From assembly GCF_004114375.1 (NCBI RefSeq), contig NZ_CP034692.1, forward strand, positions 930,001 to 994,000: 64,000 bases of DNA. Reading direction: 5' to 3'. Source of the DNA: Halorubrum sp. BOL3-1. GTDB lineage: Archaea > Halobacteriota > Halobacteria > Halobacteriales > Haloferacaceae. Of the stretch, positions 24,476 through 58,918 are shown piece by piece. Under the pieces are notes generated by a model. The model ran no database searches. It saw only the letters and a list, made by a program, of their open reading frames with translations, and was not told where the DNA came from. Positions within the stretch are counted from its first letter, which is position 1. Every line of letters begins with the position of its first letter. Made by a program: the position numbers and the translations under genes.

Positions 24476-25008
24476 ACAGCAGCGTCGGCGTACTCTGTGG
24501 CGACCGGTTCGAGCGCCTGGAGGATGATTTCGGCCTCGAGGGGAGAGAGATCGAGTTCACGGGCCGCAATCCGATGGGTGACGGTTCCATCAACGTATTC
24601 CTCGGCGTATTCGAGGGCGACAGCAAGGCCGTCGAGGCCGTGGCGCTCGATGTAGACGTCGATATCTTCGTTTTTATCGCGACGGGCGACAGCAGCGATG
24701 AGCGCCGGCGTGATCGTCTGCGTTTCGCCATCCGTTGAGAGCGTCAGCGAGAGAGATTCACCGTCGTATTCATACGGGCGCTGGTCACAGGTTTTCCCCA
24801 CTAGGCCAGCCACTTCGAGTTTCTGGACGTAGTCATAGGCTGTCCCCTGCGGGATGTCTAATTCGTCAACGATATCGGCGACTGTCACAGGCCCATCCTG
24901 TAGGACATGGGCGTAAATCCGAGCGAGTGAAGGCGTTTCAAGCAGGTCAACGACGGTCTGGAGGTGCTGAATGGGTGGCCGACCTGATCGAGGTGGTGAG
25001 TGTGCCAT
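24472..25008 (-). CDS. winged HTH antitoxin/regulator paired with PIN-like toxin
   Basis: 178 residues. Residues about 25-75 form a winged HTH (TVADIVDELDIPQGTAYDYV, then QKLEVAGLV). The middle is a beta-rich region (SLSLTLSTDGETQTITPALI) and the C-terminus an acidic helical domain (LEAEIILQALEPV). Overlapping the PIN-like gene by ATGA and preceded by AT-rich DNA with TTAATTATGAATTATCGATA, a likely promoter. The layout fits an autoregulated antitoxin gene transcribed first. Confidence 0.78.
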   Translation of the reverse strand: MAHSPPRSGRPPIQHLQTVVDLLETPSLARIYAHVLQDGPVTVADIVDELDIPQGTAYDYVQKLEVAGLVGKTCDQRPYEYDGESLSLTLSTDGETQTITPALIAAVARRDKNEDIDVYIERHGLDGLAVALEYAEEYVDGTVTHRIAARELDLSPLEAEIILQALEPVATEYADAAV

Positions 25009-54605: not shown

Positions 54606-54725
54606 TCACTCATCATCGGGCTCGGCGTCGCGACTCTTAGAAAGGCGCTCCCAGATCTCTGTACAGCCCGCACCGTCGGGGACGTCAGCAAGGTGGGCGT
54701 CGTCAGAATCATTTGAGTTACTCAT
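54606..54725 (-). CDS. 39-residue conserved small protein
   Basis: ATG at 54725 gives MSNSNDSDDAHLADVPDGAG, then CTEIWERLSKSRDAEPDDE. The DVPDGAGCTEIWE-LS-R pattern recalls small haloarchaeal proteins of unknown role. Highly acidic. Its start codon lies inside the palindrome TTACTC-N7-GAGTAA, so it should be under the same control as the divergent trmB-like gene. Confidence 0.6.
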   Translation of the reverse strand: MSNSNDSDDAHLADVPDGAGCTEIWERLSKSRDAEPDDE

Positions 54726-54738
54726 GTTCTGAGTAACT
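54716..54738. promoter_or_regulatory. palindromic operator candidate, upstream of trmB-like gene
   Basis: AGTTACTC-ATGTTCT-GAGTAACT, perfect 8-base arms around 7. It is 73 bases before the trmB-like start and covers the start of the divergent small gene. The inner TTACTC-N7-GAGTAA recurs at 55757-55775. Confidence 0.65.
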
Positions 54739-54811
54739 GTATTGGACACGGGATAATAACTCTACCGGCAGCACCAGTACGTACTTACGGAGCGAACGAC
54801 GACGGAGGCGT

Positions 54812-55693
54812 ATGTCAGAGTCCAGCGAGGAGTTCTTTTCGCTGCTCGATCTCACAGAGTACGAAGCCGAGGCGCTGGAGGAACTGCTGCTCTTGGGTCG
54901 GACGACGGCGCCCGACCTCGCCGAGGCGACCGGGATTCCCAAAGCGCGGATTTACGGCGTCTTAGACTCGCTGGCGGAGGCCGGATACATCAAGATGATA
55001 TCGGGACGCCCGAAACGGTACGAGCCGCACGAGCCGGCGGCGATCACCGAGCGCGTGGTCGAGAATCGCCGCCACGCCTACGAGCGGTTCCGCGAGGACG
55101 TCGAAGCCATTGAGGAGGCGTTCGTCGACGAGTACGCGCCGGTCCGTGACCGAGGGATCGACGAGCTCAGCCCGACAGAGGACCTGTTCCATGTCGTCGA
55201 CGTGGGCGAGCCGAGCGAGCGAGAGACTCGCCGGCTGTTTCGAGAAGCCGAGAACGGAGTGTATGTGTTTTCAAAGAGCTTCGGCTACATCGACGCCGTT
55301 CGCCCCGCAATGCGAGACGCGGTCGACCGCGATGTGAACGTCAATGTCCTCCTGTTGAATCCGGAGTCGCTCACCGAAGAGAACCAGCGACGACAGGCTG
55401 AGATTCGAGAGATGTTCAACGAGTCGTTCCCATCGGTCGCCGTGCGTGTCAGCGACCGGCTGTTGCCGTGGCGCGGAACGTTCATCGACCCGAGTCTGTC
55501 GTACGAGTCCGGTCAGGGGCTGCTCATGGTTGAACAAGAGGAGGTGCCGAACCACCACCGGCAGGCCGCAGTCACGGAGAACCCCTCGTTTGTGGCCGGG
55601 ATGTGGCAGTACTTCGACCTGCTGTGGCGCCACGAGAGCGTGCCCGCTGATCCCAGTCCCGACCCGACAGCCAGTGACAGCGCCGGGGAGTGA
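54812..55693 (+). CDS. TrmB-family sugar-responsive regulator
   Basis: 293 residues. N-terminal winged HTH: LTEYEAEALEELLLLGRTTA, DLAEATGIPKARIYGVLDSL, EAGYIKMISGRPKRYEP, characteristic of TrmB. A coiled linker (RRHAYERFREDVEAIEEAF) leads to a C-terminal PLD-like sensing domain (ENGVYVFSKSFGYIDAVRPA). TrmB proteins act as repressors or activators released by sugars. It lies directly before the sulfoquinovose-type epimerase operon, and the same palindrome stands before both, so autoregulation plus operon control is likely. Confidence 0.88.
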   Translation: MSESSEEFFSLLDLTEYEAEALEELLLLGRTTAPDLAEATGIPKARIYGVLDSLAEAGYIKMISGRPKRYEPHEPAAITERVVENRRHAYERFREDVEAIEEAFVDEYAPVRDRGIDELSPTEDLFHVVDVGEPSERETRRLFREAENGVYVFSKSFGYIDAVRPAMRDAVDRDVNVNVLLLNPESLTEENQRRQAEIREMFNESFPSVAVRVSDRLLPWRGTFIDPSLSYESGQGLLMVEQEEVPNHHRQAAVTENPSFVAGMWQYFDLLWRHESVPADPSPDPTASDSAGE

Positions 55694-55755
55694 GCGGGTT
55701 GATTCCGCAGGATGGTATCAGCGCTGCGAACCCGACCGCAAAGCATTTACTCGTA

Positions 55756-55776
55756 GTTACTCGATAGCCGAGTAAC
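55756..55776. promoter_or_regulatory. palindromic operator candidate at start of epimerase operon
   Basis: GTTACTCG-ATAGC-CGAGTAAC, ending one base before the ATG at 55778. Core TTACTC-N7-GAGTAA identical to that at 54718-54736. An additional half site TTTACTCG lies at 55746-55753. Confidence 0.68.
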
Positions 55777-55777
55777 G

Positions 55778-56926
55778 ATGACCGTGCTACTTACCGGTGC
55801 CGACGGCTACCTCGGGTGGCCGACCGCACTGCGACTGGCGGATCGGCTCGACCACCGGATCATCTGCGTCGACAACTTCGCGCGCCGCGATTGGGTTGCC
55901 GAGTCGGGAAGCGTCTCCGCGACACAAATTGAGGATCCCGAAGACCGATTCGAGCGCGTCGAAAATCTCAGCCTGATCGAGGGCGACCTCGCCGACCGCG
56001 ACTTCGTGCTCCAGCTGCTGGACACCCACGAGCCCGACACCGTGCTCCACGCCGCCGCACAGCCGAGCGCACCCTACTCGTCGATCAACGGCGAGCGCGC
56101 GCTGTACACCCAGCAGAACAACATTTCGATGACGCTAAACTTGCTCCACGGGCTCCATGAGACGGGGCTGTCGGACACGCACTTCATCGAGACGACGACG
56201 ACCGGCATCTACGGCGCGCCCCACTTCCCGATTCCCGAGGGGGGGCTGGAAGTCGAGCGCAAGGGCGGGCAAGACGAGGTGCCGTTCCCGGCAATGGGCG
56301 GCAGCTGGTACCACCAGACGAAGTCGTTCGACGCCGCGAACATGCGGCTCGCGGAGTCGCAGTTCGAGTTCCCGATGAGCGAGGTCCGAACGGCAATCGT
56401 CTACGGGACCGAAACCGAGGAGACTCGCAACCACGAGAGTCCGACGCGGTTCGACTTCGACTACTACTTCGGGACCGTCGTCAACCGCTTTTGCGCGCAG
56501 GCGGTCGCCGGCTACCCGATCACGGTGTACGGCAAGGGCGAGCAGCGCAAGCCGATGGTGAGCCTCGAAGACGCCGTCGAGAGCCTCGTCCGGCTCGTCG
56601 AGGAGGGCCACTCCGGCGACGAGGGGATCGACGTGTACAACCAGGTCACCCGGCCGATCGCGATTGTCGAACTCGCCGAGACGATCGCGGAGGTTGGCGC
56701 GGAGTTCGATCTGGACGCTGAGGTGAAACACTACGAGAACCCGCGCGAGGAGGACGAGGAACACAAAATGGAGATGGAAAACGACCGGTTCATCGAGCTC
56801 GTAGGCGGGCAACGACAGGAGCTCGAAGCCGGGATCCGCGATGTCCTTGGCACGCTCGTCGAGGAGAAAGACCGGATCGCGGCCCACGAGGACCGGTTCC
56901 TGCCCGGTGTGTTGACCGATGAGTGA
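55778..56926 (+). CDS. UDP-sulfoquinovose synthase-like enzyme (SQD1/Agl3 type)
   Basis: 382 residues. VLLTGADGYLGWPTALRLAD is an SQD1-type Rossmann start (GxxGYxGW). Further hallmarks: AAAQPSAPYSSINGERALYT, QQNNISMTLNLLHGL, TTTGIYGAPHFPIPEGGLE, and WYHQTKSFDAANMRLAE (Tyr-x3-Lys as YHQTK). The family combines UDP-glucose and sulfite to give UDP-sulfoquinovose; Agl3 does so for the Sulfolobus N-glycan. It overlaps the next epimerase by 8 bases and sits under the TTACTC operator. Use in N-glycan versus sulfolipid cannot be decided. Confidence 0.85.
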   Translation: MTVLLTGADGYLGWPTALRLADRLDHRIICVDNFARRDWVAESGSVSATQIEDPEDRFERVENLSLIEGDLADRDFVLQLLDTHEPDTVLHAAAQPSAPYSSINGERALYTQQNNISMTLNLLHGLHETGLSDTHFIETTTTGIYGAPHFPIPEGGLEVERKGGQDEVPFPAMGGSWYHQTKSFDAANMRLAESQFEFPMSEVRTAIVYGTETEETRNHESPTRFDFDYYFGTVVNRFCAQAVAGYPITVYGKGEQRKPMVSLEDAVESLVRLVEEGHSGDEGIDVYNQVTRPIAIVELAETIAEVGAEFDLDAEVKHYENPREEDEEHKMEMENDRFIELVGGQRQELEAGIRDVLGTLVEEKDRIAAHEDRFLPGVLTDE

Positions 56927-57902
56927 CGCGGGAGGGGCGGAAACCGGACGACGGATCCTCGTCACCGGCGGCTGCGGCTACATCGGGAGCGCGCTCGTTC
57001 CCCGACTGCTCGATGATCCCCGCGTGAGCGAGGTTATCGTCCTCGATTCGCTGGCGTCGGGATCGCCGGCACATCTCGCCAGCTGTATCGGCAACGGTCT
57101 CGACTTCCGCCGCGGCGACGTCCGCGACTACGGCGCCGTCGAGAGCGCGGTCCGCGGCGTCGACGCAGTGATTCACCTCGCGGCGATCACCGGCGCGGCG
57201 TCGACCCACGACCGCCGCGAGGAGACGTTTGCCGTGAACCGCGACGGGACCGAGAACGTGCTCACGGCCGCGGGGAAGTTCGACGTCGAGAACGTCGTGG
57301 TCGCCTCGTCGTGTAACAACTACGGGCGCGCGGCGAGCACCGATATCGACGAGGAGACCGAACAGAATCCGCTGAATCCCTACGCCGAGTCCAAGGTCGC
57401 GTGCGAGCGACTGCTCGACGAGGCGATCGCGGCGTACGACTTCGACGGCACCGCGCTCCGGATGAGTACGAACTACGGCTGGTCGCCGGGCATCCGGTTC
57501 AACCTCGTGGTGAATCACTTTGTGTTCCGTGGGCTGACGGATCGCTCGTTGACGGTGTACGGCGACGGGTCGAACTGGCGGCCGTTCATCCACGTGCGCG
57601 ATGCGGCGCGGGCGTACCTCGACGCGGCGTTGGATCCGGACGCGTGGCCGCAACGCGTGTACAACGTCGGATCGAACGCGGAAAATTATCGTATTTCGGA
57701 GATCGCGGAGATCGTCCGTGAGGAACTCGATCAGAACCTCGACGTAACGTATCTGGAGGACGAACAGCCCGGACCCTCCTATCACGTGAACTTCGACCGG
57801 CTCGCCGAGACCGGCTTCGAGACGGAGTGGACGCTACGGGAGGGGATCCGCGACATCGCAAGCGAGCTGACGGGCGAAGAGACTGAGGGGATCCACGCAT
57901 GA
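56919..57902 (+). CDS. NAD-dependent sugar epimerase/dehydratase
   Basis: 327 residues. RILVTGGCGYIGSALVPRLL, HLAAITGAASTHDRREETFA, SSCNNYGRAASTDIDEETEQ, NPYAESKVACERLL (Tyr-x3-Lys) and RMSTNYGWSPGIRFNLVVNH. The SCNNYG catalytic segment, with Asn-Asn in place of Ser-Val, is unusual and matches the third operon member less than other epimerases. Second gene of a tightly overlapping three-gene operon. Substrate unknown; likely a sulfo- or deoxy-sugar nucleotide made by its neighbour. Confidence 0.82.
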   Translation: MSDAGGAETGRRILVTGGCGYIGSALVPRLLDDPRVSEVIVLDSLASGSPAHLASCIGNGLDFRRGDVRDYGAVESAVRGVDAVIHLAAITGAASTHDRREETFAVNRDGTENVLTAAGKFDVENVVVASSCNNYGRAASTDIDEETEQNPLNPYAESKVACERLLDEAIAAYDFDGTALRMSTNYGWSPGIRFNLVVNHFVFRGLTDRSLTVYGDGSNWRPFIHVRDAARAYLDAALDPDAWPQRVYNVGSNAENYRISEIAEIVREELDQNLDVTYLEDEQPGPSYHVNFDRLAETGFETEWTLREGIRDIASELTGEETEGIHA

Positions 57903-58918
57903 CAGACGCAACACGGACTGAGACGGACGGCGGCAACGACAGCGAGCCAATCGAGAAGCCGACGATCGCGGTCACGGGCGCGGCCGGCTACATCGGGAGT
58001 CGAGTGATTGTCGAGTTTCAGGAGGCGCATCCCGACTGGGAGATCGTCGCGCTCGACAACCAGTACCGCGGGCAGGTGGACTCGGTCGGTGACGTCGAGG
58101 TCAAGCACGTCGACATCCGGAACCGCGACCGATTGGAAGAGGCGCTTGCGGGCGCGGACGTGGTGTGTCATCTCGCGGCAATCAGTGGCGTCGACGACTG
58201 CGAGGAGAACGCCGACCTCGCATATGAGGTGAACGTCACCGGAACGAACAACGTCGCGTGGTTCTGTCGGAAGACCGGCGCAGCGTTGACGTTCCCGTTC
58301 AGCATGGCCGTACTGGGCGATCCGGAGTCGTTCCCCATTACGGCTGACCAGCCGCGCGATCCGTTGAACTGGTACGGCCGGACGAAACTGCTCGGCGAGC
58401 AGGCGGTCGAGGCGTTCGCTGACGGCGCGTTCCCGGCACACCTGTTCTTGAAATCGAACCTCTACGGCGAACACGATGTCGACGGGACAACGGTGAGCAA
58501 GCCGACTGTGATCAACTTCTTTGTGAGCCGGGCGGTTGCGGGTGAGACGCTGACGGTGTACGAGCCCGGGACGCAGGCGCGGAACTTCGTTCACGTGAAA
58601 GACGTGGCGCGAGCGTACGTGCGGAGCGCAGAGCGGTTACTGGAGCAGTTAGCGCGTGAGGAGACTGGAACAGAGACGTTCGAAATTGCAAGTGAAGAAG
58701 ATTTGAGCGTGATGCGCGTGGCGGAGATTGTTCAGAATACGGCAAACACTCTGTTAGAGACAGATGTAGATATTGAACTTATCGAGAACCCTAGAGGTAA
58801 CGAAACGGTAGTTGAAAGGTTTGATGTGGATATCTCGAACACGCAGCAAACGATAAACTGGAGAACAGAAGAGACAATTTCCGATTCAGTCCATCGACTA
58901 TTGAAGGAGAGTCCATAG
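57899..58918 (+). CDS. NAD-dependent sugar epimerase/dehydratase, compositionally mosaic
   Basis: 339 residues, ATGA overlap with the gene before. IAVTGAAGYIGSRVIVEFQE, HLAAISGVDDCEENADLAYE, FPFSMAVLGDPESFPITADQ, NWYGRTKLLGEQAVEAF (Tyr-x3-Lys), KSNLYGEHD. The first 260 codons are GC-rich like the operon, while from about base 58680 to the stop the codons become AT-rich (TTAGAGACAGATGTAGATAT). The C-terminal substrate-binding part thus seems to come from another source or to mark the border of the AT-rich glycan block. Confidence 0.8.
   Translation: MTDATRTETDGGNDSEPIEKPTIAVTGAAGYIGSRVIVEFQEAHPDWEIVALDNQYRGQVDSVGDVEVKHVDIRNRDRLEEALAGADVVCHLAAISGVDDCEENADLAYEVNVTGTNNVAWFCRKTGAALTFPFSMAVLGDPESFPITADQPRDPLNWYGRTKLLGEQAVEAFADGAFPAHLFLKSNLYGEHDVDGTTVSKPTVINFFVSRAVAGETLTVYEPGTQARNFVHVKDVARAYVRSAERLLEQLAREETGTETFEIASEEDLSVMRVAEIVQNTANTLLETDVDIELIENPRGNETVVERFDVDISNTQQTINWRTEETISDSVHRLLKESP

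Follow-up and report, generated by a model that had tools for sequence, protein, structure and literature searches.

A conserved palindromic operator and the predicted local regulon of a TrmB-family protein in haloarchaea

In Halorubrum sp. BOL3-1, the gene of a TrmB-family regulator (P0001) lies between two copies of the palindrome TTACTC-N7-GAGTAA, which raises the question of which protein recognizes this sequence and which genes it controls. A sequence-only reading of the locus had noted the palindrome, with identical spacing, before trmB and before the first gene of an epimerase operon, and had found no other copy in the window (herein, the whole 64,000-nucleotide stretch of DNA that was analyzed). 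Both observations were verified: the two sites listed in Table 1 are the only exact matches in the window, and shuffled versions of it gave a mean of 0.00 matches. The same reading had proposed a genome scan, on the grounds that many unrelated occurrences would speak against it. No such occurrences were found, since in the whole Halorubrum genome (3,668,425 bases, 4 contigs) these two sites were the sole exact matches in 3.67 Mb, and a reversed control pattern had 0 matches. Allowing three mismatches gave 15 matches in the window against 16.7 expected by chance, with no excess, and the signal is therefore the exact palindrome. We consider it probable, at roughly 80%, that the palindrome serves as operator for the adjacent P0001, which would be the dedicated repressor of a three-SDR nucleotide-sugar operon and of a divergent gene for a protein of ~40 residues.

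Table 1. Features of the locus, numbered from the first letter of the window
Feature	Position	Strand	Basis
Small-protein gene, 39 aa (MSNSNDSDDAHLADVPDGAGCTEIWERLSKSRDAEPDDE)	54606..54725	-	ORF (ATG at 54725, 39 codons, stop ending at 54606); purifying selection; conserved beside the operator in relatives
Operator 1, TTACTCATGTTCTGAGTAA	54718..54736	.	Exact match; with operator 2 unique in the genome; conserved in relatives
Putative TATA element, GATAATAA	54752..54759	.	Predicted by reading of the sequence
TrmB-family regulator P0001, 293 aa	54812..55693	+	Winged HTH, coiled coil, PLD-like C-terminal domain
Putative BRE/TATA (aaagcattta)	55740..55749	+	Directly upstream of operator 2; predicted from 71 aligned promoters
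Operator 2, TTACTCGATAGCCGAGTAA	55757..55775	.	Exact match; -21 to -3 of the first SDR gene, ending 2 bases ahead of its ATG; same position in 27/27 relatives and 68/80 named loci
SQD1-like SDR P0002, 382 aa, first operon gene	55778..56926	+	NF041015; PDB SQD1 1qrr, 8.6e-68
Second SDR P0003, GalE/RmlB-like	56919..57902	+	PF01370, 1.1e-51; 8-nt overlap with the preceding gene; conserved order
Third SDR P0004, GalE/RmlD-like	57899..58918	+	PF01370, 5.3e-41; 4-nt overlap with the preceding gene; conserved order

Both sites contain TACTC-N7-GAGTA and so agree with TACT-N7-8-GAGTA, the motif bound by the Halobacterium TrmB (PMC4158304). The regulon is new, but the type of operator is already known. 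Our search of the open-access literature found neither a description of a TrmB-family/SDR regulon nor anything linking TrmB with sulfolipid or sulfoquinovose in haloarchaea, a result that implies no absence in other sources.

The operator and the regulator were then followed across genomes. Among 97 relatives, an orthologue of P0001 was present in 27, the SQD1-like gene in 29, and the exact palindrome in 24, and the genomes with the motif and those with the regulator were mostly the same. Every relative with both trmB and the SQD1-like gene (27/27) had the operator before the ATG of the latter, starting at -19 to -22 and with 0-1 mismatch, including four (G061, G076, G077, and G088) where trmB sits elsewhere; the two with an SQD1-like gene and no trmB (G063 and G086) had no operator. 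At the class level, the motif was detected in 141 and the regulator in 135 of 391 haloarchaeal genomes, with both in 122, the motif only in 19, the regulator only in 13, and neither in 237 (Fisher p 2.4e-64), counts that are inflated because the genomes are related and are not independent events, the co-occurrence being partly shared descent. The reversed control pattern was found in 6 of the 391. Two of the 19 genomes with the motif only carry a frame-broken trmB (G389 and G407), one has the SQD1-like gene and its operator (G152), and in eight the motif overlies the beginning of a Gfo/Idh/MocA oxidoreductase gene. The remaining sites appear mostly to be due to chance, which fits the 6 control-positive genomes.

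The position of the operator is also conserved. In 68 of 80 named loci, it stands at -20 to -24 of the first SDR gene with 0-1 mismatch (57 exact), and three further loci have it with two mismatches; this placement holds with or without the regulator gene nearby. Two sites in this genome is a number that chance, or sequences devoid of a regulatory role, might be held to account for, but such an explanation is hardly conceivable given the fixed position, the cross-species conservation and the controls, all of which contradict it.

The most telling test is the comparison in trans. There were 33 operator-bearing sqd1-like loci without trmB within 8 kb, and 31 of them belong to genomes with trmB elsewhere, while trmB was found in 0/8 of the genomes having only operator-free sqd1-like genes. 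Three operator-bearing cases had no detectable trmB: G152, the genome behind locus L187 (G445), and that behind L189 (G447, a 2.1-Mb MAG). Halocatena pleomorpha and Haladaptatus sp. DYF46 each carry two SQD1-like genes, one with the operator and one without. The link first drawn from the sequence, an operator shared by the local TrmB regulator and the downstream SDR operon, is thus backed by co-occurrence, fixed position and the trans comparison. The conserved operator and regulator form a real system, and their assignment to a local regulon is strong. In a Methanonatronarchaeales MAG (L131), an SQD1-like gene has a distant trmB (about 40% identity) as its divergent neighbor, and the operator is not recognizable; the recognition sequence there may have diverged.

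P0001 has the TrmB winged-helix DNA-binding domain (PF01978; E 1.1e-17, 64.1 bits, cut-off 25.6), as do all 29 aligned orthologues (29/29). A weak TrmB-like HTH match (24 bits) was also seen at 24775-24921 (-) of the window. The AlphaFold2 model of P0001 (pLDDT 83.7, pTM 0.53) is more certain for the domains than for their arrangement. Its best match, in structure as well as in profile, is Pyrococcus furiosus TrmBL2 (5box, 5bpd), which it follows over the whole chain (Z 17.1), the high rmsd of 15.3 over 254 residues being due to a differing domain arrangement. Both proteins consist of an HTH and a PLD-like domain and have no TrmB C-terminal subdomain; TrmBL2, however, is described as chromatin-type, while the sequence evidence for P0001 points to a site-specific local regulator.

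The control of the operon had also been read as sugar-dependent, a suggestion that the architecture of P0001 weakens. The TrmB sugar-binding domain (PF11495) gave no match in P0001 and only weak ones in 5/29 orthologues. The model matches the PLD-like half of that domain, and it aligned with TrmB (2f5t) only over residues 110-243. As the chain ends 12 residues later, there is no room for the C-terminal sugar-binding part. Gly320 and Glu326, the TrmB residues named in PMC10817205, lie in this C-terminal subdomain, which by model and profile is absent from P0001.

The Halobacterium salinarum TrmB (VNG1451C) shares the PF01978 family with P0001, and its published motif is contained in the operator described here with an 8-base gap. 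VNG1451C nevertheless acts globally, at about 113 promoters, and has a complete sugar-binding domain, whereas P0001 has two sites in its genome. Against the haloarchaeal global TrmB equivalog (NF047392), P0001 aligned by the HTH alone and scored 37.9 bits, far under the curated cut-off of 500. The genuine global TrmB of the same genome, at C3:330638, scored 604 bits, and further relatives are present too. It is quite improbable that this glucose-responsive TrmB, or another paralogue, is the main protein bound at the operators and that P0001 is not cognate. The presence of these proteins and the inclusion of the global motif in the operator mean that another TrmB could bind, and eight Natrialbaceae that have no P0001 orthologue carry this palindrome where an oxidoreductase gene of the Gfo/Idh/MocA family begins, a family that includes a known TrmB target in Haloarcula hispanica. 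The motif nonetheless tracks P0001 orthologues, and P0001 is missing from genomes whose sqd1-like genes have no operator. In addition, 0/15 peaks of the Har. hispanica TrmB ChIP fall at such an SDR operon, although, at the level of the genus, the motif occurs in every Haloarcula (g25) genome sampled. The looser patterns TACT-N8-GAGTA and TACT-N7-GAGTA are hardly commoner in the Halorubrum genome than their reversed controls. In the eight Natrialbaceae (L249, L250, and L252-L257), the palindrome covers the oxidoreductase start codon, often as (A/G)TGAGTAAC, and is probably the site of another TrmB.

Operator 1 covers the start codon of the divergent small gene, so that ATGAGTAAC of its half-site encodes Met-Ser-Asn. 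Comparison of this gene with five Halorubrum orthologues gave pS of 0.56-0.74 and pN of 0.07-0.10, and because pS far exceeds pN, the gene is real. In relatives, the protein has about 31-60 aa and the core HLxDVxDGxGCTEIWExLSExR; no family in Pfam or NCBIfam matched it, and pattern searches gave 30/35 with the final regular expression and 13/35 with a stricter one. Besides the window, the family occurs at L289:6001-6150, in L196 (just upstream of an SQD1-like gene), and in L182 (about 260 nt upstream of one). A paralogue in the same genome (L109:1463-1602; G000:C3:1118782) has no operator upstream by eye. The Har. hispanica TrmB, too, has targets that encode proteins of <50 aa and are preceded by a motif (HAH_0188 and HAH_2805).

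The palindrome had been read as predicting autoregulation of trmB, which is possible, although unproven. Operator 1 stands 75 nt ahead of trmB, and the gap is similar (about 60-80 nt) in many relatives. Across the trmB loci, however, this distance varies from 37 to 320 nt, while the operator is fixed at the start codon of the small gene, the ATG being 8 nt inside the operator end or 1-2 nt beyond it in 56 of the 60 cases measured. Among 91 distinct trmB loci, 65 had both operator and small gene, 20 neither, 6 the operator only, and 0 the small gene only. The upstream operator thus tracks the small gene, and in one genome (G095) it goes with the small gene to a place away from trmB, which there has no operator. 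As the small gene was never found without the operator in these loci, operator 1 is best read as belonging to it; a primarily autoregulatory site is a rather unlikely alternative.

Alignment of 71 promoters showed that the conserved element is wider than first described, roughly aGTTACTCa-N5-tGAGTAAC. It is preceded by a block rich in A/T (9-17 nt upstream) and by a purine-rich one (19-23 nt). At operator 1, the putative TATA element GATAATAA is 27-34 nt from the ATG of the small gene and 53-60 nt from that of trmB, and it may serve both. Short leaders are usual in haloarchaea, which would place the start of transcription in or just after the operator. This is where archaeal TrmBs are known to act as repressors, at sites downstream of the TATA box (PMC10817205). 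Since TATA elements and start sites are themselves predictions, repression over activation is unproven, but a repressor is the likely mode. Activation by P0001 at both operators is unlikely: the Har. hispanica TrmB is mostly an activator, and its small-protein target HAH_0188 has been described as not following the position rule, but the site of the SDR operon lies between the TATA-like block and the start codon, where archaeal TrmBs repress. In the preferred model, with P0001 as the repressor, a P0001 dimer would bind the operator at the two promoters, that of the three-SDR operon and that of the divergent small gene. Both sites are just downstream of the predicted TATA box; they overlap or adjoin the start codon and probably cover the point where transcription begins, so that bound P0001 would block recruitment of the polymerase. 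Binding of an effector would release it, turning on both units together. Because the upstream region is shared, the trmB gene itself might also respond, an effect that would be incidental in many species.

The operon had been described as of sulfoquinovose type, which the residues of its first enzyme make doubtful. P0002 aligns over its full length with the UDP-sulfoquinovose synthases SQD1 (1qrr) and Agl3, and keeps their His95, Thr, Tyr148, Tyr182, and Lys186. The SDR signature Tyr-x3-Lys (equivalents of Tyr182 and Lys186) is present in 82/82 SQD1-like homologues. In the same homologues, the position of Agl3 Arg101 is Pro (82/82), that of Glu147 is Val, Ile or Leu (82/82), and that of Met145 is Thr (80/82). 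In Agl3, replacing Arg101 or Met145 by alanine abolishes activity, and mutation of Glu147 impairs it (PMC4388408). The score of P0002 against the UDP-sulfoquinovose synthase family (NF041015) was 342 bits, and those of its relatives 334-380, with a curated cut-off of 575. Because critical residues are replaced and the scores are far under the cut-off, synthesis of UDP-sulfoquinovose is unproven and perhaps unlikely, and the enzyme is more safely called an "SQD1-like SDR".

The small gene and the SQD1-like gene also go together where the regulator is missing. In Haladaptatus halobius and in G086, which have neither trmB nor operator, the small gene is directly upstream of the SQD1-like gene with a 4-nt overlap, and in Halocatena pleomorpha about 260 nt separate it from the operator-free copy downstream. 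These three associations, independent of the regulator, suggest that the two genes share a function. As a tentative proposal, which may well prove wrong, the microprotein (core H-L-x-x-V-x-D-G-x-G-C-x-E-I-W-E) would be the dedicated partner of a new SQD1-like SDR that makes an uncharacterized nucleotide sugar; a single-purpose TrmB-family repressor would co-regulate both, and where this repressor is missing, the genes could be found fused into one operon.

A haloarchaeal genome encodes about three TrmB relatives that have the full domain set (PMC10817205), and few of the many TrmB relatives in haloarchaea have known targets. For P0001, the result is a compact predicted regulon, in which the operator is exactly defined and the target promoters number two; it can be tested in Haloarcula or other genera amenable to genetics. 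Database calls of haloarchaeal "UDP-sulfoquinovose synthase" drawn from the P0002 family may be wrong, as catalytic residues are consistently missing (n = 82). The freshest lead is the conserved microprotein, which the analysis has brought out and tied to a sugar-nucleotide pathway.
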